Shown: positions 15,441 to 35,506 of the stretch, one piece after another | Position numbering within the stretch: position 1 is the first letter of the stretch | How the letters are laid out: each line of letters starts with the position of its first letter | NCBI RefSeq assembly: GCF_028274965.1 | Contig: NZ_JAQCNO010000053.1 | Coordinates: 1-62,404 of the forward strand | From: Natronomonas sp. | GTDB taxonomy: Archaea > Halobacteriota > Halobacteria > Halobacteriales > Haloarculaceae | Length of the DNA stretch: 62,404 nucleotides | Direction of reading: 5' to 3' | Translations under genes and position numbers: made by a program | Notes under the pieces: model-generated | Told to the model about the DNA's origin: nothing | The model's input: the letters and a program-made list of their open reading frames with translations, nothing else | Database searches by the model: none

Positions 15441-16241
15441 TCACCCGTCGATCAGGCGGCCGAGGAGCCCGTCGGGCATCCCGGCGGCGACGAGCGTATC
15501 GAAGACCGACGCCGGGAGGAGCCACTGCAACACCGGGAGGAGCCGCGCTCTGGTCCCGACCGGGTACCGCGGGTCGGGGTCGGGCGCCGTCGCGGCGGTG
15601 ACCGCGGCGTCGGCGACGGCCTGCGAGGACGCGCTCTCGGGGCGGTAGCCCTCGAAGGCGTCGTAGGCCGCCCGGTAGGCGCTGTCCGTGCGTCCCTCGA
15701 GGGCGTCGCTCGCCCGCTCGTTCAGCCCGGTCGCAACCGGCCCGGGTTCGACGAGCGAGACGTCGACGCCGCGGTCGGCGAGTTCGCGCCGGAGCGATCC
15801 GACGTACCCCGCGAGCCCGGCCTTCGAGGCGCTGTAGGCGCCGTGGTACGGCAGCGAGACGCGGCCGACAAGAGAGCCGACAACGACGATCCGTCCGTTG
15901 CGGCGGCGGAGCCGCGACGCCAAAGCGAAGACGACGGTGTGGACCGTCAGCAGGTTCGCCTCGACGTGGCGGCGCAACCGCGCCGGCGAGCACTCCTCGA
16001 GCGCGCCGAGTTCGTACCAGCCGGCGGCGGTGATGAGGGCGTCGGGGTCGACGCCGGCCAGGGCGGTTTCGACGGCCTCGGCGTCCGTGAGATCGACCGC
16101 CTCCGTCTCGACCGCGGCCGGGAGGTCGCCGAGGGCGTCGTCGCGGCGGTCCAACGCGAGGACGTCGTGTCCGGCCGCCGAGAGCCGATCGGCGATCGCT
16201 CGGCCGATCCCGCCCGCGGCGCCGGTGAGTACCGTCTGCAT
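15441..16241 (-). CDS. Short-chain dehydrogenase/reductase
   Basis: 266-residue Rossmann-fold oxidoreductase. The NAD(P) motif TGAAGGIGRAIAD is at the N-terminus, the Ser region is VVVGSLVGRVS, and the catalytic Tyr/Lys pair sits in YHGAYSASKAG. The aspartate at the end of beta-2 (ALDRRDD) suggests NAD preference. The substrate is not predictable. The ATG at 16241 is chosen because it begins directly with MQTVLTGAAGG; longer upstream frames are Arg-rich and look non-coding. It is divergent from the iron-box-controlled flippase gene and converges on the kinase gene, so it may be an independent unit. Confidence 0.88.
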   Translation of the reverse strand: MQTVLTGAAGGIGRAIADRLSAAGHDVLALDRRDDALGDLPAAVETEAVDLTDAEAVETALAGVDPDALITAAGWYELGALEECSPARLRRHVEANLLTVHTVVFALASRLRRRNGRIVVVGSLVGRVSLPYHGAYSASKAGLAGYVGSLRRELADRGVDVSLVEPGPVATGLNERASDALEGRTDSAYRAAYDAFEGYRPESASSQAVADAAVTAATAPDPDPRYPVGTRARLLPVLQWLLPASVFDTLVAAGMPDGLLGRLIDG

Positions 16242-16350: not shown

Positions 16351-16366
16351 TTTAGGCGAACCTAAA
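16351..16366. promoter_or_regulatory. Iron-box-like operator 1 (TTTAGG-N4-CCTAAA)
   Basis: TTTAGGCGAACCTAAA is a perfect 6-base inverted repeat around 4 bases. It lies between a TATA-like TAAGTTC (about 16344-16350) and an ATG at 16372. A repressor bound here would block transcription of the 35-residue ORF and the flippase-like gene. The TTAGG/CCTAA arms match the DtxR/IdeR family box. Which haloarchaeal regulator (Idr/SirR type) binds is inferred. Confidence 0.8.
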
Positions 16367-16371
16367 TCGGT

Positions 16372-16479
16372 ATGGACGGCGCAAAGCGCCCCGACGAGAG
16401 CGGCCTGACGGCCGCGCCTCCCGCTCGGGGGTCGAACCGAGCCCGCCCGGCCCTCGGGCCGTCGGATACGGGCGGATGA
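16372..16479 (+). CDS. Small ORF (35 aa) translationally coupled to the flippase-like gene
   Basis: ATG 5 bases after operator 1 and about 25 bases after the TATA-like sequence, so it would be the first codon of a leaderless transcript. It encodes MDGAKRPDESGLTAAPPARG and 15 further residues. Its TGA overlaps the next ATG as ATGA (16476-16479). The composition is low-complexity, with no domain seen. The ORF may be a short protein, or a translated leader that delivers ribosomes to the downstream gene. Supported by geometry only. Confidence 0.45.
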   Translation: MDGAKRPDESGLTAAPPARGSNRARPALGPSDTGG

Positions 16480-17567
16480 GCGGCCGCCTCCCGGCGTGGG
16501 TCCGCCGCTCGTGTTCGAGGGGCCGGCTCGCGGTGCTCGGGACCGTTCTCGTCGTCGTCGCGGTCGGCGCCGTCGCGGTCCGGACCGTCGATCTGAGCGC
16601 GGCGCTCGCACAGCTCCGGCGGGCCGACCCGGCGCTTCTCGGGGTCGGGCTCGCCGTCTACCTGCTCTCGTGGCCGCTCCGCGGGCGGCGCTACGGCGAC
16701 GTGCTCGCGGCGATGGACCGACGGTACGGGACCGCGTTTCTCACGGCCGCCGTTCTCGTGAGCCAGACCGCAAACCTCGTCGTGCCCGCCCGCGCCGGCG
16801 ACGGGGTCCGGGCGTACGTCCTGAAGACCCGCCGCGGGGTGCCGTACCCGACCGGCGTCGCGTCGCTTGCCGTCGAGCGCGTGTTCGATCTGCTGGCCGT
16901 CGCCGCGCTCGGCGGCGTCGCCTTCGCCCTGCTGGCGTTCGGCGGCCGGGACGTCACGCTCGCCGGCGGGTCGACCGGCGCCGCCGTCGCCGTCACAATC
17001 GCCGTCTCGGCGGCGGCGCTGTCGGTTTCGACGGTCGCCGTCGCCCGCAGCGATCGGCCGATCGGGGGCGCCCTCCGGGACCGCGCCGCCGGGACGCGGC
17101 TGTCTTCGGCCGCCGACGCGCTCGTCCGGTTCGGCGCCAGCGTCCGCGTCGTGGCGGCGAACCCGCGGGCGATCGCGACGGTCTACGCCGGGAGCCTCGC
17201 AATCTGGGCGGCGGACGTCCTGACGGCGGTGGCGGTGCTCGGCGCGCTCGTGGGCTTCGACGGCGCGAGCGTGTCGGTGCCGACGCTTCTCGTCGTCGGG
17301 ACGCTCGCCGTCAGCGTCGGGAACCTCGCGAAGGTGTTGCCGCTCTCGCAGGGCGGGATCGGGCTGTACGAGGCGGCGTTTACCGGGATCGTCGTCGGTG
17401 TCGCACCGATCGCGCCCGAGGCGGCGCTGGCCGCGGCCGTGCTCGATCACGCGCTCAAAAACGCCGTGACGCTCGGCGGCGGCGCCGTCGCCGCCGCCGC
17501 TCTTAACGTCTCTCCGCGGGCCGCCCCCGAAGACGCCGACCCGGCGGCGGCATCGTCAGATATTTAG
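16476..17567 (+). CDS. UPF0104/LPG-synthase transmembrane-type flippase-like protein
   Basis: 363 residues with about eight hydrophobic helices. Family hallmarks are RAGDGVRAYVLKTRRGVPYPTG, SLAVERVFDLLAV and the C-terminal PLSQGGIGLYEAAFTGI. The family includes the membrane part of bacterial lysylphosphatidylglycerol synthase and the C-terminal domain of haloarchaeal AglD, so lipid-linked sugar synthesis or flipping is plausible. It is a separate gene here, with GT2 and GT-C-like glycosyltransferase genes nearby. The start overlaps a 35-aa ORF (ATGA). The stop codon TAG lies inside iron-box operator 2. Expression is predicted to be iron-repressed through operator 1. Confidence 0.82.
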   Translation: MSGRLPAWVRRSCSRGRLAVLGTVLVVVAVGAVAVRTVDLSAALAQLRRADPALLGVGLAVYLLSWPLRGRRYGDVLAAMDRRYGTAFLTAAVLVSQTANLVVPARAGDGVRAYVLKTRRGVPYPTGVASLAVERVFDLLAVAALGGVAFALLAFGGRDVTLAGGSTGAAVAVTIAVSAAALSVSTVAVARSDRPIGGALRDRAAGTRLSSAADALVRFGASVRVVAANPRAIATVYAGSLAIWAADVLTAVAVLGALVGFDGASVSVPTLLVVGTLAVSVGNLAKVLPLSQGGIGLYEAAFTGIVVGVAPIAPEAALAAAVLDHALKNAVTLGGGAVAAAALNVSPRAAPEDADPAAASSDI

Positions 17568-17578
17568 GCCAGCCTAAA
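17563..17578. promoter_or_regulatory. Iron-box-like operator 2 (TTTAGG-N4-CCTAAA)
   Basis: TTTAGGCCAGCCTAAA, with arms extendable to 7 bases (TTTAGGC/GCCTAAA). It overlaps the likely TATA (GATATTTA, 17559-17566) about 27 bases before the ATG at 17591, and also the stop codon of the preceding gene. Confidence 0.8.
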
Positions 17579-17590
17579 CCATGGCTAGCA

Positions 17591-18772
17591 ATGAGTCCGA
17601 CCGCCTCGAGACGCGCCGAGCGGGACACCTGCGTGATCGTCCCGACGATCCGGGAGTACGACTGCATCAGGGCCTACGTCGAGAACGCCCGCGAACACGG
17701 CTTCGATACGTCGCGGCTGGAGTTCGTGCTCGTCACGGAGGACTTCTGTGAGACCGACGCGATGCGGGACACCCTCGAGGAGTTGGACGTCTCAGGGGAG
17801 GTCTTCGACGGGACCCGCCGCGAGCGGTGGTACGACGAGCACGGGATCGCCGAGTACGGCCACGTCGTCCCGGCCGCCAGTCACGCCGAGACGAGCTTCG
17901 GGCTGTTGTACATGTGGGAGCACGACCGCTTCGAGTACGGCTTTTTCATCGACGACGACACGCTCCCGCACGACGGGAGCGACTACTTCGGCCGCCACAT
18001 GCGGAACCTCGCGTTCGGCGGCGACGTCGAGTCGGTCCGCTCGGACGAGCGGTGGGTGAACGTCCTGTATCAGCGCGCGGACGAACACAGCCTCTACCCA
18101 CGGGGATACCCCTACTCGGCGATGGACGAGACCGTCGAGACGGACACGAGGACGATCGAGGCCGGCGACGTCGTCGCCTCCCAGGGGCTCTGGACGAACG
18201 TCCCCGATCTCGACGCCGTTCGGATCCTGATGGACGGCGACCTCGAGGGGCAGGCCCAGACCCGGACGAGCGCCGAGGACTTCCCCCGGGACTTCGTTGC
18301 GGCCCCGGGCAACTACCTCACCGTCTGCTCGATGAACCTCGCGTTCCGCCGGGAGGTGATCCCGGCGTTCTATCAGCTTCCGATGGACGACAACGAGTGG
18401 GACGTGGGGCGGTTCGACGACATCTGGAGCGGGGTGTTCCTCAAGCGGGCCTGCGACGTGTTGGGCGCGGAGATCTACAACGGCCGGCCGCTGTGCGAGC
18501 ACAACAAGGCCGCCCGATCGACGTTCGACGACCTCCACAACGAGGTCGCGGGGCTCGAGCTCAACGAGCACCTCTGGCGCATCGTCGAGGACGCCGGCGA
18601 GGGGGCCGACGGGTACGCCGAGATCTACGGCGCGATGGCCGATCGGCTCGCCGAGGGCTCCTTCGACGAGTTCCGGAACGGGGCGTTTTTCAACCACGTC
18701 GGCGAGTGCATGCGCGATTGGCTCGCGTGTCTCGACGCGCTCGACCGCGTTCCGGCGGCGGCGGACGACTGA
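17591..18772 (+). CDS. RGP/UDP-arabinopyranose-mutase-like glycosyltransferase-fold protein
   Basis: 393 residues. The pattern matches the reversibly glycosylated polypeptide family known from plants. It has a GT-A start (CVIVPTIREYDCIRAY), the metal motif FFIDDD (Asp121-123), NVLYQ, the RGYPY box (Arg171; an Arg in this region of plant RGPs is the self-glycosylated residue), QGLWTNVPDLDA, GNYLTVCSMNLAF, GRFDDIWSGVFLK and LCEHNKA. Plant members interconvert UDP-arabinopyranose and UDP-arabinofuranose. Whether this one acts on a pentose is inferred. It would supply an activated sugar to the neighbouring glycan machinery. The start is set 27 bases after the TATA that overlaps operator 2. It is followed 38 bases later by the ferric-iron binding-protein gene with its own operator. 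Confidence 0.8.
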   Translation: MSPTASRRAERDTCVIVPTIREYDCIRAYVENAREHGFDTSRLEFVLVTEDFCETDAMRDTLEELDVSGEVFDGTRRERWYDEHGIAEYGHVVPAASHAETSFGLLYMWEHDRFEYGFFIDDDTLPHDGSDYFGRHMRNLAFGGDVESVRSDERWVNVLYQRADEHSLYPRGYPYSAMDETVETDTRTIEAGDVVASQGLWTNVPDLDAVRILMDGDLEGQAQTRTSAEDFPRDFVAAPGNYLTVCSMNLAFRREVIPAFYQLPMDDNEWDVGRFDDIWSGVFLKRACDVLGAEIYNGRPLCEHNKAARSTFDDLHNEVAGLELNEHLWRIVEDAGEGADGYAEIYGAMADRLAEGSFDEFRNGAFFNHVGECMRDWLACLDALDRVPAAADD

Positions 18773-18791
18773 ACCGACAGGTATAACAATG

Positions 18792-18807
18792 TTTAGGTAG
18801 GCCTAAA
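18792..18807. promoter_or_regulatory. Iron-box-like operator 3 (TTTAGG-N4-CCTAAA)
   Basis: TTTAGGTAGGCCTAAA lies between the TATA (GGTATAACA, about 18780-18788) and the ATG at 18811. The operator would cover the start site of a leaderless transcript. Confidence 0.85.
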
Positions 18808-18810
18808 AAT

Positions 18811-19932
18811 ATGGACAGCGACGAACTCGGAGACGGACTGGATCGGCGCCGCGTGCTCGCGGGGGTCGGCGCGCTCGGCGCGGCCGGCCTCGCCGGGTGC
18901 TTCAGCGGAAACACCGACGAGCCGACTGACTCCCCGGTCGGTCAGATCGGGTCCGGCCGGGAGGGACGCGGCGCGCCGGGCGGCATGCCGATCGCCGACA
19001 TGCCGCCGCTGTCGGGCGAGTTGACCGTCTACTCGGGGCGCGGGGAGTTTCTCGTCGGCGCGCTCGTGCAGTTCATCGAGGACCAGTACGACGACTTCTC
19101 GCTCACGGTCCGGTACAGCGGCTCGACGGACCTCGTCAACCAGATCGTCAACGAGGGCGACGGATCGCCGGCCGACGTGTTTTACTCCGTCAACGCCGGC
19201 GCCCTCGGCGCGCTCGCCGAGGAGGGCCGCACCGCCTCCCTCCCGGAGGACGTCCTCGGGATGGTCCCCTCGGAGTTCCGGACCGACGAGTGGGTCGGAA
19301 CGTCCGGCCGCGCCCGGAGCGTCCCGTACAACACCGACGTCCTCTCCGAGGAGGACATGCCCGATGACATCATGGTCTATCCCGACGAGTTCGACGGCGA
19401 CCTCGGGTGGGCGCCCTCCTACGGCTCCTGTCAGGCCTTTCTCACAGTAATGCGCATTCTCGAGGGCGAGGAGGCGACCCGCGAGTGGATCGACGGCGTC
19501 CTCGAGGCGGGGATCCGGGCGTATCCAGACGAGTTCGCCGCCTGTCAGGCGATCGCCGACGGTGAGATCGACGCCGCGTTCACCAACCACTACTACATCC
19601 AGCGGGTGCTGGACGGGAGCCCCGGCGCGTCGATCGGGACGGCCTTCACCCGCGGCGACGCCGGGGCCGTCTTCAACGTCGCCGGCGCGGCGGTCGTCGA
19701 CACGGCCTCGGACGCCGAACTCGCGGGGAACTTCGTCCGACACCTCCTTTCGGCGGAGGCCCAAGACTACTTCGCGCGATCGACCTTCGAGTACCCGCTC
19801 GTCCCGGACGTCGATCCGATCGGGGGCCTCCCGACGGTCGACGAACTCGACGTCCCCGACATCGACCTGACGCAGCTCTCGGACTTAGAGGCGACCGTTG
19901 ATCTTATGCGGGAGGCCGGCGTCGACATCTGA
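18811..19932 (+). CDS. Ferric-iron ABC transporter substrate-binding lipoprotein (FutA/FbpA type)
   Basis: 373 residues. A Tat-type signal (DRRRVLAGVGALGAAGLAGC) ends in a lipobox Cys at position 30, so the protein is exported folded and lipid-anchored outside the cell. The mature part starts ELTVYSGRGEFLVGALVQ, typical of iron(III)-binding proteins. It keeps a tandem Tyr pair (Tyr261-Tyr262, in NHYYIQRV) like the Fe3+ ligands of FbpA/FutA. It would deliver Fe3+ to the permease encoded at 26501. It is separated from that permease by 6.6 kb of glycan and dehydrogenase genes, but both are next to the same operator type. The GT-C-like gene begins 16 bases downstream, so it is probably co-transcribed. 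Confidence 0.92.
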   Translation: MDSDELGDGLDRRRVLAGVGALGAAGLAGCFSGNTDEPTDSPVGQIGSGREGRGAPGGMPIADMPPLSGELTVYSGRGEFLVGALVQFIEDQYDDFSLTVRYSGSTDLVNQIVNEGDGSPADVFYSVNAGALGALAEEGRTASLPEDVLGMVPSEFRTDEWVGTSGRARSVPYNTDVLSEEDMPDDIMVYPDEFDGDLGWAPSYGSCQAFLTVMRILEGEEATREWIDGVLEAGIRAYPDEFAACQAIADGEIDAAFTNHYYIQRVLDGSPGASIGTAFTRGDAGAVFNVAGAAVVDTASDAELAGNFVRHLLSAEAQDYFARSTFEYPLVPDVDPIGGLPTVDELDVPDIDLTQLSDLEATVDLMREAGVDI

Positions 19933-19947
19933 ACGGCCGCGTCCACC

Positions 19948-22251
19948 GTGTTGCCCCCACCGATCCGCGCGCTCCGTCGACGCCTTTCGTCCGCACGCAG
20001 CCCCGCCCTCGGCCGGGGTCGCGTCGGGCGGGCGCCGCTCGTTGGGCTTTTCGTCGCCGTCGCCGCCGGCGGTGCCGTTTTCGCCGTCGCGGCGACCGTG
20101 TTCGGGTACCACTCGAGCAACCACGACGAGGCCGTCTATCTGCTCCAGGCGGCGATGCTTCTAGAGGGGCAACTGGCGGTACAGGCCGGGGAGTTGGCCG
20201 GGGCGTTCCGGCCGTGGTTCTTCATCGAGGACGGCGGGCGGCTCTACCCGAAGTACACCCCCGTTCCGGCCGCGATGTTCGCGGTCTCGATGGGGCTGTT
20301 CGGGGAGCCGCGGGTGACGCTTGCGGTCGTCGCCGCCGCCAACGCGGCGCTCGTGTACCTCCTCGGGACGATGCTCGCCGGTCGCCGGGTGGGCGCGGTC
20401 GCCGCCGTCGCGTTCGCGGCGTCGCCGATGGCGCTCGTCACGACCGCGGCATTCCTCCCGTACGCGCCGACGACGCTCTGGAACCTCCTGTTCGCCGTCG
20501 CGTATCTGCGGGGGCTTCGCGACGGGTCGGCCCCCGCGGCGGCCGTCGCCGGGGTCGCCATCGGGATCGCCTTCTTCGCCCGGCCGTTCACGGCGGTCCT
20601 GTTCGCGGCTCCGTTCGTCTGTCACGCGCTGTATCGGGTCGTCGCCTCGCTTCACAGAGAGGGGCTCTGGCCGCCGTCGGGGGCCGTCCGCCGACAGGGC
20701 CTCACCGCCGCGATCGGCCTGTGTTTCGTCGGCGTGACGCTCGCGTACAACCTCCGGATGACCGGCTCGCCGCTCGTGTTCCCCTACGAGGCCTTCGCGC
20801 CGCTCGATGGCCCCGGGTTCGGGCGGCGGCGGATCCTCGAGCACTCGATCGTGTACTCGCCCGCCGTGGCGCTCGAGTCGAACGGCTACGCGCTTTGGTA
20901 CCTCCTGACGCGGTGGTTCACCGCGGGCGCGGTCGGCAGCGCGTTCGCCCTCGGCGGGGTCGGGTACGCGCTGTACCGCGCGGTTCGGGGCCGCGGGCCG
21001 GCGCTCGGTCCGGGGACAGGACCCGGGAACGCCATCGACGACGTCGAGGGTCGTGGCTCGGTGCGGCGGCCCGGAACGGCGCTCGTCGGCGGCCTGTTCG
21101 TCACCGTCCCGGTCGGGAACGTCTTCTTTTGGGGCAACCACAACATGCTCGCGACCCGGACCGACCCGACCGACGGGATCGTCTCGCAGTTCGGCCCGAT
21201 ATACCACTTCGATCTGCTCGTTCCGCTGTCGGTGTTCGCCGCGATCGCGGCCGTCGCCTGCTGGCGGGCGCTGCCCGCGCTCCGGTCCGAACTCGGACGG
21301 TGGGTGTCGCCGGCGGCGGCGCGGGGCCTCGTCGTCGCCGTCGTCCTCGCCGCCGTGGTGTTCGCGGGCGCGGTGAACGCCGCGGCCGTCTCCGGACCGC
21401 TCGAGCGGAACGCGGCGCACGGAGACAAGCACGCGACCGCGTACGAACCGATCGAGGAGGCGTCGTTCGACGACGCGCTTGTCTTTCTCCCGACGCCGTA
21501 CGGGGAGTGGCAGAACCACCCGTTTCAGTACCTCCGCAACGACCCCGGCCTCGACGGGGACGTCGTGTACGCGCTCGATCGGGGTCCGGGCGAGGACTTC
21601 GAGGTGATCGACGCCTACCCCGATCGGACGCGGTACCGCTACGCCTACCAGGGCGAGTGGACGCCGGACGCCGCCCGCCGCGTGACGCCGAAACTCGAGG
21701 CGATCGAACCCCGGCGCGGGGAGACCCTGCGCGCGCGGACGACCGTCGGGGTTCCCGACCGCGTCGACCGCGTCCGGGTCCGGTTGGACGCCGGCGGGGA
21801 CGAACGCGCCGGATACACCGTCGAGGACCCGACGGAGTCGTTCGCCGTCGGGTGGTCCCTGCGCGGCGACGGCGCGCGACTCGACGCCCCCGGGGCGGAC
21901 GCGGTCGTCGGACTCGACGGCCCCGAAACCGTCGTGGTGACCGTGACGCTCGTCCAGCCCGGGGGCTCGACGCTCACCTACCGCCAGGAGGCGAGCGTCC
22001 GGACGACAGAGGGCGGCGTCGAGGTCGTCTGGCCGCCGGAGCGGTACGTCTGTCGGCTCGTGACCGAGTGCGGAAACGAGGGGACCTACCTCCCGGACGA
22101 CCCGGACGCACACCTCGATGGGGTGCGCTTCGAGACACGGATCGAGTCCGCGGAGGGCGCAAGCGACAGGCCGGCGACGCGGCAGGCGGCTCCGAACGGA
22201 GAAACGACGGCGGAACGACAATGGCGGACCACGCGAACGGAGAACCAATGA
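19948..22251 (+). CDS. GT-C-type (GT39/ArnT-like) membrane glycosyltransferase with external domain
   Basis: 767 residues with a GTG start 16 bases after the iron-binding protein. A first membrane helix (~30-52) is followed by YHSSNHDEAVYLLQA, which carries the acidic pair Asp60-Glu61 expected in the first loop of lipid-phosphate-sugar-using GT-C enzymes. About nine or ten more helices run to residue ~480. The last ~280 residues look like a soluble outside domain, with a beta-sandwich-like stretch near 590-680 and two Cys in YVCRLVTECGNEG. It probably moves a sugar from a polyprenyl-phosphate donor onto a surface acceptor. The specific donor is unknown. Its stop overlaps a small ORF as ATGA, indicating coupling. 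Confidence 0.75.
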   Translation: MLPPPIRALRRRLSSARSPALGRGRVGRAPLVGLFVAVAAGGAVFAVAATVFGYHSSNHDEAVYLLQAAMLLEGQLAVQAGELAGAFRPWFFIEDGGRLYPKYTPVPAAMFAVSMGLFGEPRVTLAVVAAANAALVYLLGTMLAGRRVGAVAAVAFAASPMALVTTAAFLPYAPTTLWNLLFAVAYLRGLRDGSAPAAAVAGVAIGIAFFARPFTAVLFAAPFVCHALYRVVASLHREGLWPPSGAVRRQGLTAAIGLCFVGVTLAYNLRMTGSPLVFPYEAFAPLDGPGFGRRRILEHSIVYSPAVALESNGYALWYLLTRWFTAGAVGSAFALGGVGYALYRAVRGRGPALGPGTGPGNAIDDVEGRGSVRRPGTALVGGLFVTVPVGNVFFWGNHNMLATRTDPTDGIVSQFGPIYHFDLLVPLSVFAAIAAVACWRALPALRSELGRWVSPAAARGLVVAVVLAAVVFAGAVNAAAVSGPLERNAAHGDKHATAYEPIEEASFDDALVFLPTPYGEWQNHPFQYLRNDPGLDGDVVYALDRGPGEDFEVIDAYPDRTRYRYAYQGEWTPDAARRVTPKLEAIEPRRGETLRARTTVGVPDRVDRVRVRLDAGGDERAGYTVEDPTESFAVGWSLRGDGARLDAPGADAVVGLDGPETVVVTVTLVQPGGSTLTYRQEASVRTTEGGVEVVWPPERYVCRLVTECGNEGTYLPDDPDAHLDGVRFETRIESAEGASDRPATRQAAPNGETTAERQWRTTRTENQ

Positions 22252-22382
22252 ACGAACCGGAGACACCGACGAACGGGAACGGACGGACCGGCGGGACTGT
22301 GATCGAACGAACGGCGGGGGCGGCTCCCGAGGCGGACCCGACGACCGCGACGTCACTCGCGGGCGGGGGGACGGGGCGGTGA
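22248..22382 (+). CDS. Small ORF (44 aa) bridging the GT-C and epimerase genes
   Basis: The ATG overlaps the preceding stop (ATGA at 22248-22251), and the TGA overlaps the next GTG start (GTGA at 22379-22382). The encoded peptide begins MNEPETPTNGNGRTGGTVIE and is rich in Gly, Thr and Pro, with no domain seen. An in-frame ATG at 22221 would add nine residues. The double overlap is the argument for translation. It could equally be a spacer that keeps ribosomes engaged. Confidence 0.45.
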   Translation: MNEPETPTNGNGRTGGTVIERTAGAAPEADPTTATSLAGGGTGR

Positions 22383-23311
22383 CGTCCGGAACGGCACAGC
22401 GGGTGCTCCTCACCGGGGGCGCGGGGTTCATCGGGTCGCGGCTGGCCCGGCGGCTCCGGGAGGAGGGTCGTGAGGTCACCGTCGTCGACGACCTCTCGAA
22501 CGGGGACGAGAGCCGGGTCCCGGAGGGGGTCGAGTTCCTCGAACGGGACCTGACGCGATCGGGGGCGTTGGCCGAGGTCGTCACGCCGGAGTACGGGATC
22601 GTCTACCACCTGGCCTCCCGGAAGGCGGTGAACGACCCCGACCCGCGCGGGCAGTTCCGCGAGAACACCGGGATGGCCTACGCCCTGCTGGAGGCGGTTC
22701 TCGACGCCGACATCCCCGAGGTCGCCTTCACCTCGAGTTCGACCGTCTACGGGGAGGCCCCGCGTCCGACGCCGGAGGACTACGCCCCGCTGGAGCCGAT
22801 AAGCGGCTACGGGGCGAGCAAACTCGCCGCCGAGGCCGTCCTCTCGACTGGGGCCCACGCCCACGGCCTCACCGTCTACAACTACCGCTTTGCGAACATC
22901 GTCGGCCCGGGGCTCCGGGGGGCCGTCGTGCCCGATTTCATCGAGAAGCTCCGCGAGGACCCCGAGACGCTGCGGATCCTCGGGGACGGCCGCCAGGAGA
23001 AGTCCTACATGCACCTCGAGGACTGCATCGACGCGATGCTGTACGTCGAGGAGCACGCCGACGGGCCGATGGCGACCTACAACCTCGGGACCCGGACGAC
23101 GACCTCGGTGAACCGGATCGCCGACATCGTCGCCGAGGAGATGGGGCTCTCGCCGGCGTACGAGTACACCGGCGGGGACCGGGGCTGGACCGGCGACGTC
23201 CCGCGAATGCGACTCTCGATCGAGAAGCTCACCGGGCTCGGCTACGAGCCCTCGATCGGGAGCGACGAGGCGGTCAGGCGGGCGACGCGTGAGCTCCGCG
23301 CGGAGCTGTGA
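22379..23311 (+). CDS. NAD-dependent sugar-nucleotide epimerase/dehydratase
   Basis: 310 residues, extended SDR fold. NAD motif LLTGGAGFIGSRLARRL, SSSTVYGEA with the conserved Ser/Thr region, catalytic pair in YGASKLAAE, and NYRFANIVGPG. Closest in pattern to UDP-glucose 4-epimerases, but the substrate is not certain. The GTG at 22379 is chosen because it overlaps the preceding small ORF and begins just before the Rossmann motif; the longer upstream frame is Arg/Gly-rich and unlike a protein. Probably expressed with the iron-binding protein and GT-C genes. Converges on the GT2 gene. Confidence 0.88.
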   Translation: MTSGTAQRVLLTGGAGFIGSRLARRLREEGREVTVVDDLSNGDESRVPEGVEFLERDLTRSGALAEVVTPEYGIVYHLASRKAVNDPDPRGQFRENTGMAYALLEAVLDADIPEVAFTSSSTVYGEAPRPTPEDYAPLEPISGYGASKLAAEAVLSTGAHAHGLTVYNYRFANIVGPGLRGAVVPDFIEKLREDPETLRILGDGRQEKSYMHLEDCIDAMLYVEEHADGPMATYNLGTRTTTSVNRIADIVAEEMGLSPAYEYTGGDRGWTGDVPRMRLSIEKLTGLGYEPSIGSDEAVRRATRELRAEL

Positions 23312-23365
23312 CGGGACAGAAAGCGCGCGGCGTGCGACCGGAGGCCGTTTCGGGTGCGGCCGGAG

Positions 23366-24172
23366 CTACCGGAACCGCTCTTCGAGACAGACCGAGACGA
23401 TCGATTTGCCGATCGCGAGGCCGCCCTCGATCGGGTCGAGTTTCGTTTCGCCGAGGCGCTCGGCGTACTCGATCGGGTGCTCGCGGACGTCGTAGCCCCG
23501 CATCAGCGGCCTGATGAGCAGTTCCGCCGAGAGCCCGGTGTTTTCGCGCCAGCGGATCGACTCGACGACCTCGCGGCGGTAGGCGCGCATGCCGGTCGTG
23601 GTGTCGTGGACCCGCCGGCCCATCAGGACGCTCGCGACGAGCGCGAAGGCGCGGTTGCCGAAGCGGTTGAACGCCGGCATCGTCTCGGCGCCGTGATACA
23701 GCCGGTCGCCGCTGACCACGTCGTGGCCCTCGTTGATCAACGAGAGGAACTCGGGGAGCTGTTCCATCGGGTACGTGTCGTCGCAGTCGGTCGTGACGAC
23801 GACGGGGCGGTCGGGGGCGAGGAGCGCCTCCCGGACCGCGACGCCGTAGCCCTGTGGCTCCTGTTCGATGACGCGGGCGCCGTGCTCGCGGGCGATCTCC
23901 GGCGTCCGGTCCGAGGAGCCGTCGACGCAGACGACCTCGGCTCGCCCGTCCGTGACCCGATCGATGTCCGTCAGGACGGTCCCGATCGCCGCCTCCTCGT
24001 TGTACGTCCCCATCACGACGCTGAGGTCCTCGAACCCGTAGTCGTCGGCGTCGGCGTCGGTCGACGCTTCGGCTCCGGCGGTCCCGGACGCGGCGTCCGA
24101 TCCCGCGGCTGCGCCGTTTGCGTCCGCGTCGAGGTCCGCCGTAACGTCCGCATCGCGTGCTGTTTCGTTCAT
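23366..24172 (-). CDS. Family 2 glycosyltransferase, polyprenyl-phosphate-sugar synthase-like
   Basis: 268 residues. An acidic, Ala-rich low-complexity N-terminus (~45 residues) precedes the GT-A domain: LSVVMGTYNEEAAIGTVLTD, VVCVDGSSDRT, and the metal motif TTDCDDTYP. The later signature DTTTGMRAYRR and the lack of long C-terminal membrane helices fit the soluble dolichol-phosphate-mannose/glucose synthase type. It would charge a polyprenyl phosphate with a sugar for the nearby GT-C enzyme. The upstream region contains iron-box operator 4, about 34 bases before the ATG. Confidence 0.87.
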   Translation of the reverse strand: MNETARDADVTADLDADANGAAAGSDAASGTAGAEASTDADADDYGFEDLSVVMGTYNEEAAIGTVLTDIDRVTDGRAEVVCVDGSSDRTPEIAREHGARVIEQEPQGYGVAVREALLAPDRPVVVTTDCDDTYPMEQLPEFLSLINEGHDVVSGDRLYHGAETMPAFNRFGNRAFALVASVLMGRRVHDTTTGMRAYRREVVESIRWRENTGLSAELLIRPLMRGYDVREHPIEYAERLGETKLDPIEGGLAIGKSIVSVCLEERFR

Positions 24173-24205
24173 GACCGGAGCGTTTCCGCCGAGCGCACTT
24201 GAGCT

Positions 24206-24221
24206 TTTAGGTTTACCTAAA
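24206..24221. promoter_or_regulatory. Iron-box-like operator 4 (TTTAGG-N4-CCTAAA)
   Basis: TTTAGGTTTACCTAAA is positioned to control the GT2 gene starting at 24172 on the minus strand, where it overlaps the expected TATA region. It lies 2 bases beyond the stop codon of the GMC gene. Confidence 0.8.
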
Positions 24222-24223
24222 AA

Positions 24224-25831
24224 TTAGTGGAGCGCCGCCGCGACGCTGTCGGCCGCCCGCAGCGCCAGCGCGGCGATCGTGAGCGTCGGGTTCATCGCCC
24301 CGGCGGTCGGGAAGACGCTGCTCGAGGCGATCCAGCAGTTCCCGAGGTCGTGGGTTCGCAACTCGGCGTCGACGACGCTTTCCTCGGGGTCCTCGCCCAT
24401 CCGCGTCGTCCCCATGTGGTGGTACGCCGGACCGGTGTTTTCGGGGCCGACCTGCCAGCCGATGTCGACGCCCAGCTCCTCGAGGATCTCGCGTTGGATC
24501 TCGTTGGCCCGCTCGATCGTCCGGAGCGCCCGGTCGCCGACCGTCCAGTTGATCTCCGGGACCGGGTTGCCGCGGTGGTCGGTCCGGTCCGGATCGAGCG
24601 CCACGCGGCTCTCCTCGCGGGGGAGCTGTTCGACGAGCGCCCCCATGCCGATGTGGTTCCCGTAGTCCGCGCGGATCCGCTCGAGCAGCGCGTCGCCCCA
24701 GTCGTCGCCGGTGAGCGCCATCGTGACCGGCGAGGGGCCGTCGTAGTTGAAAAACTCCAGCTTGAACGGTCCGGTCTCCTCGTCGGCCTCGTCGTAGAAC
24801 TGGTCGCACCCGCTCGTGAGAAATCCGACGTGGTTCTGTCGGGTCGGCTCGTCGAGCAGCCCCCCCATCCCCGCGAAGAGGTGGTCCATGAAGAACGACC
24901 CGACCAGCCCCGAGGAGTTCGCCAGCCCCTCTGGGTACTGCGAGGACTCGGACAACAACAGGAGTCGCGGCGTCTCGACGCCGCCGCAGGCGACGACGAA
25001 CGCCTCTGCGGTCTGGCGGTGCTGTGTGCCGTCGGGGGTCGCATAGACCGCCGCCGTCACCCGCTCGGCGTCGTGATCGAGGTACTCAACCGGCGCGCGA
25101 TCGAGGACCGTCGCGCCCTTCCGCTCGGCGCGGTCGACGTGAACCGTCGCGTCGTACTTCGCCCCCGACGGACAGACGGGCTGGCAGGTGCCGTAGCCGA
25201 CGCAGGCCGAGCGGTCGTCGTAGGCCTCCGAGTTGCGCGCGTTCGGGACCGAGTGCATGTCGATCCCGAGTTCCTCGCAGGCCTCCGCGAACAGCGAGTC
25301 GCTGTAGGACGGCGAGAACGCCGGCATCGGGTGGGGCTGTTCCCGCGGCGGCGCGTAGGGGTTGTCGTCGGCGCCGGCGACCCCCAACTCGCGTTCGGCC
25401 GCGGCGTAGTGCGGGCGGAGGTCGGCGTACTCGATCGGCCAGTCGGGCCCGACGCCGCGTTCGGACCCGGAGTTGAAGTCGTCCTCGTGGAGGCGGACGA
25501 CCATCCCCTGCCAGTGCAGCGTCGACCCGCCGATCCCCTTGACGCGGGCGTGGTTCAGCGGGTAGAACCACTCGCCGCCGTTGCTGTGGGCGTCGCGGTC
25601 GCCGCCGACGTCCCAGACGTCGGGGCGGTCGAAGGCGGGCCGGATCGCGCGCTCCTGTCGTTCGATCCGGTCGGCGGGGTCGAACCGCGGGCCGGCCTCA
25701 AGCACGACGACCTCGTGGTCGGCGGCCAGCCGGTCGGCGATCAGCCCCCCGGCCGGCCCGGCCCCGATCACGCAGACGTCGGCGGACTCGACGGGCGTCC
25801 GGTCGGCGCTCGGGCCGACGGAGCGCGTCAT
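24224..25831 (-). CDS. GMC-family FAD dehydrogenase with a 3Fe-4S motif (sugar/gluconate dehydrogenase large subunit type)
   Basis: 535 residues. FAD motif VCVIGAGPAGGLIADRLA and GGSTLHWQGM near the N-terminus; catalytic His region (AYHHMGTTRMG) and Asn (GAMNPTLTIAALA) at the C-terminus. Residues 210-221 read CVGYGTCQPVCP: Cys210, Cys216 and Cys220 have the 6- and 4-residue spacing of the 3Fe-4S ligands in FAD-glucose dehydrogenase. It has no signal peptide of its own. Its ATG overlaps the stop of the Tat small-subunit gene (ATGA), so export as a complex with that subunit is likely. No multihaem cytochrome subunit gene is adjacent. It would oxidise a sugar or sugar acid outside the membrane; the substrate and electron acceptor are unknown. 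Confidence 0.88.
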   Translation of the reverse strand: MTRSVGPSADRTPVESADVCVIGAGPAGGLIADRLAADHEVVVLEAGPRFDPADRIERQERAIRPAFDRPDVWDVGGDRDAHSNGGEWFYPLNHARVKGIGGSTLHWQGMVVRLHEDDFNSGSERGVGPDWPIEYADLRPHYAAAERELGVAGADDNPYAPPREQPHPMPAFSPSYSDSLFAEACEELGIDMHSVPNARNSEAYDDRSACVGYGTCQPVCPSGAKYDATVHVDRAERKGATVLDRAPVEYLDHDAERVTAAVYATPDGTQHRQTAEAFVVACGGVETPRLLLLSESSQYPEGLANSSGLVGSFFMDHLFAGMGGLLDEPTRQNHVGFLTSGCDQFYDEADEETGPFKLEFFNYDGPSPVTMALTGDDWGDALLERIRADYGNHIGMGALVEQLPREESRVALDPDRTDHRGNPVPEINWTVGDRALRTIERANEIQREILEELGVDIGWQVGPENTGPAYHHMGTTRMGEDPEESVVDAELRTHDLGNCWIASSSVFPTAGAMNPTLTIAALALRAADSVAAALH

Positions 25832-26379
25832 CGGGGCCCCCTCGCGTAGCTCTCTGCGCCCCCGGGGTAGCCCTGGGGGTTCTCGATCCCGGCGAGTTCC
25901 CCGCCCGTCGGGGAGGCGTACAGCGCGAGGAGGAGTTCGTTGACGACGTAGTACCGGACCCGCTCGGCGGTCGTCCCGTCGGGGTCCTCCTCGGCGGTGT
26001 CGGCCCCGAGTTCCCGGAGGAGGCGGTCGCGGGTCTCGGCCGACAGCGCCGCGATCGGCGCGTCGTACCACGAGCGGGCGATCCCGTCGACCTCGGCGAC
26101 CGTCTCCCGCAGCGCCCGGGCGTGGGGGTCGCCGGTCAGGCGACCGTCGAGAAAGCCGTTGACGAACGCCTCGACACCCGAGACCTCCTCTGGGTACACG
26201 ACCCGCGCGACCGCGACGAGCGACGCACGCACCTGCTCGTCGGTGATCGGGTCGGCCCCCTCGTCGGAGGCCGACGCCCCGTCGCCGGAGTCGCGGACCC
26301 GGTCGGCCCCCAGCGCGACGCCGCCCGTCGCTCCGATCGCGGCGAGTGCGGCCGCCGCGTCGCGCCTGGTCAGTTCCAT
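25828..26379 (-). CDS. Tat-signal small subunit, gluconate 2-dehydrogenase subunit 3 family
   Basis: 183 residues. The N-terminus MELTRRDAAAALAAIGATGG is a twin-arginine signal. The rest (LVAVARVVYPEEVSGVEAFV, FLDGRL, YYVVNELLLALYASPTGGEL, QGYPGG) fits the subunit 3 family that escorts GMC dehydrogenases through the Tat system. Start at 26379: a TATA (ATATAAGC on this strand, about 26404-26411) lies 27-29 bases upstream, with iron-box operator 5 between the TATA and the ATG. First gene of the GMC operon. Confidence 0.88.
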   Translation of the reverse strand: MELTRRDAAAALAAIGATGGVALGADRVRDSGDGASASDEGADPITDEQVRASLVAVARVVYPEEVSGVEAFVNGFLDGRLTGDPHARALRETVAEVDGIARSWYDAPIAALSAETRDRLLRELGADTAEEDPDGTTAERVRYYVVNELLLALYASPTGGELAGIENPQGYPGGAESYARGPR

Positions 26380-26385
26380 GCGGTG

Positions 26386-26401
26386 TTTAGGCGGACCTAA
26401 A
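26386..26401. promoter_or_regulatory. Iron-box-like operator 5 (TTTAGG-N4-CCTAAA), divergent
   Basis: TTTAGGCGGACCTAAA sits 6 bases upstream of the leftward ATG (26379) and about 100 bases upstream of the rightward permease ATG (26501). A TATATCC/ATATAAG segment at 26404-26411 can serve as TATA on either strand, so one operator could control both the dehydrogenase operon and the iron permease. Confidence 0.82.
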
Positions 26402-26500
26402 CGCTTATATCCGTCGGACCGAACCGGTCCACACATAACCGACGCGCCGGTAGGGAAGACAGACCGCCGTCCCGGCGGCACCCGACACCGACACCGACCG

Positions 26501-28105
26501 ATGGACCTACCCAACAGAATCGCGCTCCGCTCGGCCGACCGGACCGCCTCGACGTGGCTCGTCGTGCTGTCGGGAGCCATCGCGGTCGCGCTCGTCTTCC
26601 CGCTTCTGTGGCTCGTTATCGAGGCCGTCAGGGTCGACCGGGGGCGCGCCTCGGAGCTGCTTTTCAGCGCGGGGACCGCCGACGTGCTGCTCAACAGCCT
26701 GCTTTTGATGGGCGGCGTGACGGCGTGTTCGATCCTGCTCGGCGTGCCGCTTGCGTACCTGACGGTCCGGACCGACCTCCCGTTCCGTCGGTTCTGGTCC
26801 GTTGCCGTTGCGCTCCCGCTCGTCGTCCCCAGCTACATCGGGGCGTTCGCGTTCGTCTCCGCGTTCGGCCCCAACGGCGAGTTCCACGCGCTGTTGTCGC
26901 CGCTCGGCATCGATCGGGTGCCGCAGGTGTACGGCCTCCCCGGCGCGGTGTTCGTGATCACGCTGTACACCTACCCATACGTGTACCTCACGACCCGGGC
27001 CGCGCTGCTCTCGTTCGACACGCGGCTGTTCGACGCGGCCAGGACGCTCAACCAGGGCCGGTGGGCGTCGTTTCGCCGGATCACGCTCCCGCAGGTCCGA
27101 CCGGCGGTGGGGGCCGGCGCGCTGTTGACCGCGCTGTACGCCGTCTCGGATTTCGGAACGCCGGCGATCATGCGGCTGTCGGTGTTCACCCGGCAGATCT
27201 ACGTCGAGTACAACGCCTTCGGGCGCGACTACGCCGCGTTGCTCTCGCTGCAGTTGCTCGGCGTCGTCGTCGTCGTCCTCGCCTTGGAGTGGCTCGTCCG
27301 GACAGACGACACGGTCCAAGGCGACGACGCCGAGCGGGCGGGCAGTCGGGTCCGACTGGGGGCGTGGCGCTGGCCGGCGAGTCTGCTCCCGGCGGGCGTC
27401 TCGACGGTCGCGCTCGCGGTCCCCGTCTGGATACTGCTGTTGTGGCTCCGCCGCGCCGACGCCGGCCGCCGCCCGTCGCTCGCCTTCGAGTGGACGCAGG
27501 TGCTCAACTCCGTCTCGATCTCCGCCGCGACCGCCGCCGTCGCAGCGCTCGTTGCGCTGCCGATCGCGTACTACGCCGCCACGGACGACTCGCGGTTGGC
27601 GCTCGTCTTCGAGCGGATGACCTACGTCGGCTTTGCCGTTCCCGGGGTCGTGTTGGCCCTGGCGCTCGTGTACTTCGGCGCTGGATACCTCCCGTCGGTT
27701 TACCAGACGCTCCCGCTTTTGGTGTTCGCGTACGTCGTTCGGTTTCTCCCGCAGGCCGTCGGCTCCTCGCGGACGTCGATGCTACAGATCGACCCCAAGC
27801 TCGTCGAGGCCGGTCGCACGCTCGGCGAGTCGTCGCTCGGGACGTTCAGGCGGATCACGTTCCCGCTGACGCGCTCGGGGATCGTCGCCGGCGCGGCGCT
27901 GGTGTTCCTGACGACGATGAAGGAACTGCCCGTGACCCTCATTCTCCGGCCCTCGGGGTTCGAGACGATCGTCACGCAGATCTGGCGGGCCCAGGACACC
28001 GCGCTGTACCAGTACGCCGCGATCCCGGCGCTCTTGCTGTTGGGCATCTCCGGGCTGTCGATGGTCGTGTTGCTCTCTCAGGAGGGGACAGACGGGGGGC
28101 TGTGA
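26501..28105 (+). CDS. Ferric-iron ABC transporter permease (FbpB type, two fused halves)
   Basis: 534 residues with about twelve membrane helices in two homologous halves. Each half has an EAA-like loop: FDAARTLNQGRWASFRRITLPQ (~180-200) and VEAGRTLGESSLGTFRRITFPL (~435-455). Such fused permeases import Fe3+ delivered by FutA/FbpA-type binding proteins. The gene encoding the matching binding protein is at 18811. No ABC ATPase gene is found anywhere in the window, so the ATPase must be encoded elsewhere or shared. The ATG at 26501 is followed directly by a short cytoplasmic tail and the first helix. Confidence 0.92.
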   Translation: MDLPNRIALRSADRTASTWLVVLSGAIAVALVFPLLWLVIEAVRVDRGRASELLFSAGTADVLLNSLLLMGGVTACSILLGVPLAYLTVRTDLPFRRFWSVAVALPLVVPSYIGAFAFVSAFGPNGEFHALLSPLGIDRVPQVYGLPGAVFVITLYTYPYVYLTTRAALLSFDTRLFDAARTLNQGRWASFRRITLPQVRPAVGAGALLTALYAVSDFGTPAIMRLSVFTRQIYVEYNAFGRDYAALLSLQLLGVVVVVLALEWLVRTDDTVQGDDAERAGSRVRLGAWRWPASLLPAGVSTVALAVPVWILLLWLRRADAGRRPSLAFEWTQVLNSVSISAATAAVAALVALPIAYYAATDDSRLALVFERMTYVGFAVPGVVLALALVYFGAGYLPSVYQTLPLLVFAYVVRFLPQAVGSSRTSMLQIDPKLVEAGRTLGESSLGTFRRITFPLTRSGIVAGAALVFLTTMKELPVTLILRPSGFETIVTQIWRAQDTALYQYAAIPALLLLGISGLSMVVLLSQEGTDGGL

Positions 28106-34279: not shown

Positions 34280-35506
34280 ATGGACCGACGACGCTACCTA
34301 CGGCTCGCCGGCGTCGGCGCACTCGGCGCGCTCGGCGGGTGTCTCGACGCCGCTTCCTCCGGGTCCGACGACGGCTCCGAACCCGCAGACGACCCGCCGG
34401 AGTCGGGCACCGACGCCGACGCCGACGCCGACGCCGACGTCGTGGTGACGGAGGCCGTTTCGGGGCTCTCGAACCCCTGGGGGCTCGCGTTTCTCCCCGA
34501 CGAGTCCGGGATGCTCGTGACCGAACAGGCCGGACGGCTGCTTCTCGTGGACGTCGAAGGCGGCGAGCGGACCGAACTGGCGGGCGTCCCCGAGGTCCGC
34601 GCCCGCGGGCAGGGCGGGCTGTTGGACGTGACGACGCACCCGGAGTTCGACTCCAACCGGCTCGTCTATCTCACCTACTCCGTCTCGGGGGCGGGCGGTT
34701 CGAGCACCGAAGTCGGGCGCGGGCGGTTGGACCGAGACCGAGAGCGACTCGTCGACTTCGAGCCGCTGTACACCGCCCGCCCGTTCGTCGACTCGGACGG
34801 CCACTACGGATCGCGTGCGGTCTTCGACCCCGAGGGCTACCTCTACGTGAGCGTCGGCGACCGGCAGTTCAAGAACTTCGGCCCGGAGCACGTCGGACAG
34901 ACCGTCGACGACGACCTCGGATCGGTCCTCCGGCTGCGCGAGGACGGGTCCGTCCCCGGGTCGAACCCCTTCGTCGACGACCCGGAAGCCTCCGGGGCGG
35001 TGTTCACCTACGGCAACCGAAACCCCCAGGGGCTCGCGGTCCACCCCGAGACGGGCGCGGTGTGGGAGACGGAGTACGGCGAGCGCGACGGCGACGAGAT
35101 AAACGTCCTCGAAGCGGGCGCGAACTACGGCTGGCCGGTCGCCGACAACTCCTGTGAGTACGGCTCCGACGAGGACGTCGGCGTCCCCCACGACGAGCGC
35201 GAGGACGTGCGCGCGCCGGTCTTCGGGTGGCCCTGCGGGAGCGGGGGCTTCCCGCCGAGCGGCGCGAGTTTCTACGACGGCGACGCCGTCCCCGAGTGGC
35301 GCGGCGACCTGTTCGTCGCCGGCACGGCAAAGCGCTCGCTCGCGCACTTCGAGGTCGACGGCGAGGCGGTGACGGCGGTCGAGCCGCTGTTGGCCGACCG
35401 GGGCCAGCGGCTCCGGGACGTGACCGTCTCGCCCGTCTCGGGGCATCTCTACGTGGCGGTCGACGACGACGACGCGCCGGTCTACCGGATCGCGCCCGCG
35501 GAGTGA
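34280..35506 (+). CDS. Exported PQQ-type aldose (glucose/sorbosone) dehydrogenase lipoprotein
   Basis: 408 residues. The Tat-like signal MDRRRYLRLAGVGALGALGGC has a lipobox Cys, followed by an acidic linker with an Asp/Ala repeat (DADADADADA). The beta-propeller starts at SGLSNPWGLAFLPDESG, with GQGGLLDVTTHPEF, HYGSRAVFDPEGYLYVSVGD, GNRNPQGLAVHP and the PQQ/Ca region. Family members oxidise sugars outside the membrane with PQQ. Whether this organism makes PQQ is not visible here. The gene stands alone between two unrelated genes. Confidence 0.88.
   Translation: MDRRRYLRLAGVGALGALGGCLDAASSGSDDGSEPADDPPESGTDADADADADVVVTEAVSGLSNPWGLAFLPDESGMLVTEQAGRLLLVDVEGGERTELAGVPEVRARGQGGLLDVTTHPEFDSNRLVYLTYSVSGAGGSSTEVGRGRLDRDRERLVDFEPLYTARPFVDSDGHYGSRAVFDPEGYLYVSVGDRQFKNFGPEHVGQTVDDDLGSVLRLREDGSVPGSNPFVDDPEASGAVFTYGNRNPQGLAVHPETGAVWETEYGERDGDEINVLEAGANYGWPVADNSCEYGSDEDVGVPHDEREDVRAPVFGWPCGSGGFPPSGASFYDGDAVPEWRGDLFVAGTAKRSLAHFEVDGEAVTAVEPLLADRGQRLRDVTVSPVSGHLYVAVDDDDAPVYRIAPAE

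Follow-up and report, generated by a model that had tools for sequence, protein, structure and literature searches.

Why should about 10 kb of the genome of the haloarchaeon Natronomonas sp. carry the same inverted repeat, TTTAGG-N4-CCTAAA, five times over? The repeat lies in a stretch of 62,404 nucleotides (the window, below) that makes up an entire contig, where perfect copies begin at 16351, 17563, 18792, 24206 and 26386 and 0 are expected. Allowing up to two mismatches adds no match within the window, and the perfect element occurs 0 times in 100 dinucleotide shuffles of it. The symmetry of the element is perfect, with 6-bp arms and a 4-nt centre whose sequence is variable. In the genome (2,276,379 bases searched, 73 contigs, 94% complete) there are six perfect copies, namely the five in the window and one on another contig (C39:76102), and none of the reversed control. 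Five of the six thus lie within one 10-kb stretch, which is not scatter. Five more matches appear at up to two mismatches, two of them with a single mismatch and both on contig C41; at that threshold the element has 11 matches in all versus 14 for the reversed control, and the two-mismatch matches were discarded as noise. The first-pass annotation had reported the five sites, to the exact coordinate, and none elsewhere in the window, and in both respects it is borne out; the random scatter that a genome-wide scan might have revealed is not seen. Its regulon of about 10 kb holds as a five-site cluster but not as a confined one, since further sites lie on C39 and C41.

We consider it very probable that the five elements are operators of a metal-dependent DtxR-family repressor controlling a surface-sugar module along with ferric uptake. 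IdeR and DtxR monomers recognise CCTAA repeats, and the 14-bp TTAGGNNNNCCTAA has been proposed as the consensus for one dimer (PMC8464063, in excerpt). The TTAGG-N4-CCTAA core fits this consensus, and the earlier statement that the arms match the DtxR/IdeR box therefore stands, for a half-box only; the iron box of Actinobacteria is the 19-bp TTAGGTTAGSCTAACCTAA (PMC8464063, in excerpt).

Position and conservation of the element

The five operators and the nine genes of the island, in order along the window, are as follows.

Operator 1, 16351..16366, sequence TTTAGGCGAACCTAAA, upstream of the UPF0104/LPG_synthase_TM gene
UPF0104 flippase-like membrane protein (FLIP), 16476..17567, plus strand; Pfam PF03706 1.6e-38, TIGR00374
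Operator 2, 17563..17578, overlapping an A/T-rich TATA-like region and the 3' end of FLIP; 12 nt before the RGP start codon
GT75/RGP-family protein, predicted NDP-sugar pyranose-furanose mutase, 17591..18772, plus strand; PF03214 4.8e-17, PDB MtdL 7xpr 3.8e-22, catalytic residues kept
TATA-like box TATAAC of the binding-protein promoter, 18782..18787, plus strand, read from sequence
Operator 3, 18792..18807, between the TATA-like box and the ATG of the binding protein; 3 nt before the ATG
Ferric iron-binding lipoprotein (FbpA-type SBP), 18811..19932, plus strand; PDB iron-binding proteins, best 1.5e-58, and Pfam SBP families
PMT-like membrane glycosyltransferase with DUF7846, 19948..22251, plus strand; DUF7846 1.2e-49, PMT_2 9.3e-5 (below cut-off)
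NAD-dependent sugar epimerase/dehydratase, 22370..23311, plus strand; PF01370 5e-47; reading frame open from 22118, start provisional
GT2, dolichyl-phosphate hexose transferase, 23366..24172, minus strand; NCBIfam NF041391 8e-125 (above cut-off)
Operator 4, 24206..24221, overlapping the A/T-rich promoter region of GT2; 33 nt before the GT2 ATG
GMC/FAD sugar dehydrogenase catalytic subunit, 24224..25831, minus strand, presumably transcribed from the G2D3 promoter; PDB 6a2u_B 7.5e-85, Pfam GMC_oxred_C and GMC_oxred_N
Gluconate 2-dehydrogenase subunit 3 family protein (G2D3, the small subunit), 25828..26379, minus strand; PF13618 1.8e-9, Tat-like RR N-terminus read from sequence
Operator 5, 26386..26401, between a TATA-like box (26402-26412) and the minus-strand G2D3 ATG; 99 nt upstream of the divergent permease
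ABC permease of ferric/AEP type with two BPD_transp_1 stretches, 26501..28105, plus strand; PF00528 3.8e-27, the NCBIfam models shown being below their cut-offs

Seven of the nine genes are concerned with sugar or redox chemistry, not transport, and had been left unnamed in the first-pass annotation. That annotation had also placed three sites between TATA and start and two over the TATA region, which is only roughly right. The operators at 18792 and 26386 do have a TATA-like box on one side and the ATG on the other, and those at 17563 and 24206 do overlap an A/T-rich TATA-like region; no TATA box stands out near the operator at 16351, from which the gene start as read is 109 nt downstream. 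A repressor bound at such a position in an archaeal promoter blocks TBP/TFB or the polymerase, and the placement of the element suggests the geometry of a repressor. This part of the earlier account finds support in relatives, where the distance between site and ATG is conserved. At four of the six genes with sites, the site ends 2-35 nt before the start codon, after or overlapping a TATA-like stretch, and for the binding protein and G2D3 an A/T-rich TATA-like stretch lies directly upstream of it. Between the end of the site and the start codon there are 11-13 nt in 45 of 62 rows for RGP (range 2-17), 4 nt in 43 of 69 for the binding protein (range 2-10) and 6-8 nt in 50 of 53 for G2D3 (range 6-10); for GT2 there are 32-33 nt in 39 of 58 and 11 nt in 11 of 58 (range 7-35). 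The distance is variable for UPF0104 (3-110 nt, with peaks at 7 and 24) and for the permease (5-209 nt). These counts omit rows that have a site and no assigned in-frame start (19/81 for RGP, 4/63 for GT2 and 1/65 for the permease).

The loci compared were fetched by alignment of the RGP protein, not by motif, and are the best 80 of 244 relatives. Sites were sought from -200 to +40 of each gene start, with at most one mismatch unless called perfect. A site is present at the RGP start in all 80 loci (perfect in 79), at the start of the binding protein in 68/80 (perfect in 64) and at that of GT2 in 54/62 (perfect in 53). The small subunit has one in 52/56 (perfect in 27), UPF0104 in 51 of the 57 loci carrying the gene (perfect in 30) and the permease in 40/64 (perfect in 27). 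Genes inside the presumed operons of these loci have no site of their own: 0/78 for PMT, 0/32 for the epimerase, 0/56 for GMC and 0/11 for the ATPase, whose 11 matches comprise 8 true neighbours and 3 distant minus-strand genes. The gene-body control gave 0 perfect sites. Over the 1,524,605 bases of these loci the arms are spaced by N4 in 259 copies and by 11 in one, no other spacing from 0 to 12 occurs, and the reversed control is absent. The copies are confined to gene starts, with 254 of the 259 perfect ones inside the start windows of island genes and four of the other five at +43 of GT2. The gene block itself is conserved, the binding protein following RGP within 500 bp in 79/80 loci.

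The element is also widespread. Each of the 57 genomes of the family set contains between 1 and 24 perfect copies, whereas the reversed control turns up once in the whole set. In a phylum sample of 295 genomes it is found in all 72 of the same order (570 copies versus 11 reversed) and in 80 of the 223 outside the order, at no more than 5 copies each. The RGP protein is present in 53/57 family genomes and 115/145 sampled class genomes, and Haloferax volcanii too has a PF03214 match.

Tandem operators, 27-36 bp (about three helical turns) apart and one of them sometimes mismatched, occur in six stretches from relatives (L062, L065, L066, L194, L204 and L205), an arrangement that suggests cooperative binding. 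At operator 1, a 35-codon reading frame (16372-16479) begins 5 nt past the site and ends in a stop codon that shares bases with the UPF0104 start (ATGA); among seven relatives whose UPF0104 leader was read, one (L087) has a similar gap of 110 nt and six start 6-44 nt past the site. A short-chain dehydrogenase (15441-16241) divergent from operator 1 was rejected as a target, with no tblastn match to it in the 80 loci. A glucose/sorbosone dehydrogenase (GSDH) gene, without an operator, lies 6 kb past the island at 34280-35506.

Iron uptake and a proposed surface-sugar module

In iron-replete cells, a metal-loaded DtxR-family dimer would occupy TTTAGG-N4-CCTAAA, at or immediately past the TATA box, and prevent transcription; when iron is scarce, the repressor would be released and the five promoters would open together. 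Three sets of products would then appear: an FbpA-type ferric importer (binding protein and permease, with the likely ATPase encoded elsewhere behind a one-mismatch site); a lipid-linked surface-glycan module (GT75 mutase, UPF0104 flippase-like protein, dolichyl-phosphate hexose transferase, PMT-like transferase and epimerase); and a Tat-type FAD sugar dehydrogenase.

The ferric-iron binding protein and permease named among the flanked genes in the first-pass annotation are both recovered here. The binding protein matches 28 PDB sequences (best 1.5e-58), most of them iron-binding or iron-transport proteins and the rest YfuA, SfuA or solute-binding proteins, and in an alignment with these relatives the paired tyrosines of its NHYY motif are aligned; the permease is identified by PF00528 (3.8e-27). 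No ATPase is found in the operon of this importer in the present genome. A likely ABC ATPase gene lies on C41 with one of the one-mismatch sites upstream, 64 nt from site centre to start. The other C41 site (L015 1501-1516) stands after a Dps/ferritin-like gene (L015 712-1263) and before a DUF7547 gene. In 17 of the 80 loci the binding protein is less than 50% identical to that of the window (for example L108, L127, L138, L144 and L145; Natrinema, Halorussus and some others), and in the examples read the permease follows it; in these loci the importer portion of the island may have been replaced, with the operators left in place.

Sites in congeners were annotated from hand-chosen stretches, 18 fetched and 17 annotated. 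They precede three scanned Peripla_BP_2 substrate-binding proteins, and they adjoin a pyridine nucleotide-disulphide oxidoreductase-like gene, a small DtxR-family gene with an Amphi-Trp-like gene, a 2Fe-2S ferredoxin, a calcineurin-like phosphoesterase, an HTH_10 regulator and a DUF7551/7552 gene. Sites thus precede iron-uptake genes across species, in the 80 loci as in congeners, and the regulon, as far as these predicted genes tell, is wider than the island and in part iron-flavoured.

What the sugar genes would contribute is a more tentative matter. In keeping with iron control of such genes, the proteome of iron-starved Haloferax volcanii shows an 11.6-fold rise in the UPF0104 protein HVO_1859 and a 12.7-fold rise in a GalE-family protein (PMC11349517, in excerpt), and HVO_1859 is named as the typical UPF0104 member (PMC5898192, in excerpt); the comparison with the island genes is at the level of family, not orthology. 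A search of the accessible literature for glycan genes and iron in haloarchaea returned nothing beyond PMC11349517. One speculative and on balance improbable reading is that haloarchaea short of iron make a surface sugar and oxidise it, which would amount to siderophore-independent, glycan-based iron capture under one DtxR-type operator. The GT75 mutase would make a furanosyl nucleotide sugar, which the dolichyl-phosphate transferase would load, UPF0104 would flip and the PMT-like enzyme would attach outside. The Tat-exported FAD sugar dehydrogenase would oxidise this surface sugar, and either the product would bind Fe(III) or electrons from the enzyme would reduce it, beside the ferric-binding protein of the same island. 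Should the sugar module prove to help in capturing iron, it would represent a new way of obtaining the metal in oxic brines, and a function could be assigned to several haloarchaeal genes that are conserved but uncharacterised (UPF0104, DUF7846 and archaeal GT75). In any case, an archaeal operator is sharply defined and can be read from sequence alone, and a presumed iron control is linked to surface-sugar chemistry in a conserved gene block.

Candidate regulators and competing explanations

A search of the genome with PF01325 gave 8 matches, 6 over the cut-off. Two of the eight, L007 and L008, are clear DtxR-family proteins; the other six are, by eye, other helix-turn-helix types. L007 has helix-turn-helix (HTH), metal-binding and FeoA domains, an architecture named SirR in PMC11218638. 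In an alignment of 30 SirR-type homologs (the best 30 of the search), all seven ligand positions are occupied (D, H, E, H, D, E, H). Relative to IdeR, Pro39 and Thr40 are kept in 30/30, Ser37 is Thr in 29 and Gln43 is Ser in 30. We slightly favour L007 over L008 as the protein that would bind the operators.

That the binder is instead L008, a DtxR-family protein of 145 aa (L008 1240-1677 = G000:C44:14838-15272, minus strand), is a doubtful but real possibility. It would sense iron via a conserved set of cysteines, not the classical metal site; when L008 is lined up through 5zr4, most classical ligand positions are lost. A CPDCF...C tail and the cysteine of YCIIERF are kept in 20/20 aligned orthologs, and the 145-aa type is possibly a cysteine-based sensor of iron or of Fe-S. 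Occurrence does not tell the two types apart, since both gave a match in 57/57 family genomes; in one (G007) the match of the 145-aa search is the SirR-type gene, and the 145-aa type is thus seen in 56/57. The gene before it in the present genome, whose stop codon shares bases with the L008 start, encodes a protein of 161 aa that is ferritin-like by eye but has no Pfam match. However, the equivalents of IdeR Pro39 and Thr40 (through 5zr4) are Ala and Ser in L008, and no site is found within 300 bp upstream of the gene in 20/20 loci at up to three mismatches, so that no autoregulation is seen.

Some observations count against iron control by a SirR-type protein at a DtxR-type operator. The 80 loci lean to Halorubrum and other close kin, and the perfect site is absent in about half of the relatives at G2D3 (27/56 perfect) and UPF0104 (30/57). 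In one genome of the order (G210) the reversed control is more frequent than the element, 4 versus 3, and around 3 of the 30 RGP loci of the family set, which all belong to a single genus, a search of about 1.5 kb allowing up to two mismatches finds no site. A second conserved CCTAA, such as the 19-bp two-dimer box would have, is missing from the flanks of 264 sites. The sixth perfect site of the genome (C39:76102, L208 6103-6118) stands 165 nt before a DUF7260 gene that is not known to be linked to iron, and two congener sites (L200 and L203) have no assignable gene start. Finally, Asp stands at the positions of IdeR Met10 and Cys102 in 30/30 SirR-type homologs, which may point to sensing of Mn or of both Fe and Mn. 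As a separate observation, the leader between C39:76102 and the DUF7260 gene contains another short overlapping reading frame.

The two Asp positions are also an argument for the same operators answering to manganese, or to iron and manganese, through an MntR-like SirR-type protein. A Mn-dependent GT75 would fit a Mn-linked programme, and the characterised GT75 mutase MtdL uses Mn2+ (PMC9937993, in excerpt). On the other hand, the uptake genes behind the sites are of ferric-binding and Peripla_BP_2 types, and no NRAMP or Mn-type importer is present among the scanned proteins behind sites, a small hand-chosen set. We hold manganese, alone or together with iron, to be quite unlikely as the signal.

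It is highly improbable that the element acts as an RNA hairpin, that is, as an attenuator or stability element and not as a DNA operator. Its perfect inverted repeat, with 6-bp arms and a 4-nt loop, could indeed fold, but many sites directly follow or overlap the TATA-like stretch and so lie at or before the predicted transcript start. Half-sites occur almost only paired in the 80 loci (259 pairs per 307 TTTAGG and 303 CCTAAA), and both one-mismatch copies in the genome break a pair with no compensation. Chance or a dispersed repeat is refuted by an expectation of 0, a variable N4, a restriction to start regions and conservation across genera, and nothing in the element counts and controls was found to support it.

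Comparison with known systems

Repression by a DtxR-family protein, the reading we prefer, can be set beside several characterised systems. The arms TTAGG/CCTAA and the 4-bp spacing are identical to those of the IdeR/DtxR box, which likewise stands at promoters of iron-uptake genes; the island element differs in being the half-site of a single dimer, lengthened by one T/A at either end, and in standing in archaeal promoters before other targets (PMC8464063, in excerpt). The RGP protein keeps the DXD, the autoglycosylated Arg, the metal His and the catalytic Asp of GT75, and all of 18 aligned sequences retain the equivalents of MtdL Asp109, Asp111, Arg159, Asp195, Ser228, Arg257, Asp260 and His287 (residues from PMC9937993, in excerpt). 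It differs from MtdL in having His for Asp87 and Met for Gln229 (PMC9937993, in excerpt), and because of these two changes it likely acts on another sugar.

With FbpABC ferric importers the island shares the family of the binding protein, and the order binding protein, permease, ATPase, PMT is found in 8 of the 80 loci; in the present genome, by contrast, the likely ATPase gene is on a different contig, preceded by a one-mismatch site of its own. The sugar dehydrogenase of the island is closest to fructose dehydrogenase and to 6a2u, which we take to be the FAD glucose dehydrogenase of Burkholderia cepacia, and its GMC protein aligns over its length with 6a2u. Cys212, Cys218 and Cys222, which presumably hold a 3Fe-4S cluster, are kept, whereas Cys213 is Val. 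As in 6a2u, a gene of the small-subunit family with a Tat-like N-terminus precedes the GMC gene, and the three-cysteine motif together with this Tat-like signal marks the pair as an FAD sugar dehydrogenase. None of the ten island-region proteins scanned is a cytochrome c, no search of the whole genome for one having been made.

Haloarchaeal DtxR-family iron regulons reportedly include that of the ferR signal (Leyn and Rodionov 2015) and that of TroR of Haloferax volcanii (Martinez Pastor 2024). The fhu genes of Haloferax volcanii carry the ferR signal, which is ascribed to Leyn and Rodionov 2015 (PMC11349517, in excerpt). The island agrees with these regulons in organism group, in regulator family and in a signal before iron-uptake ABC genes. 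Set against all of these systems, the operator is, by its letters, of a known kind, a DtxR half-box. What is unusual is the predicted content downstream of it: a ferric importer together with a complete-looking surface-sugar path and an exported sugar dehydrogenase.

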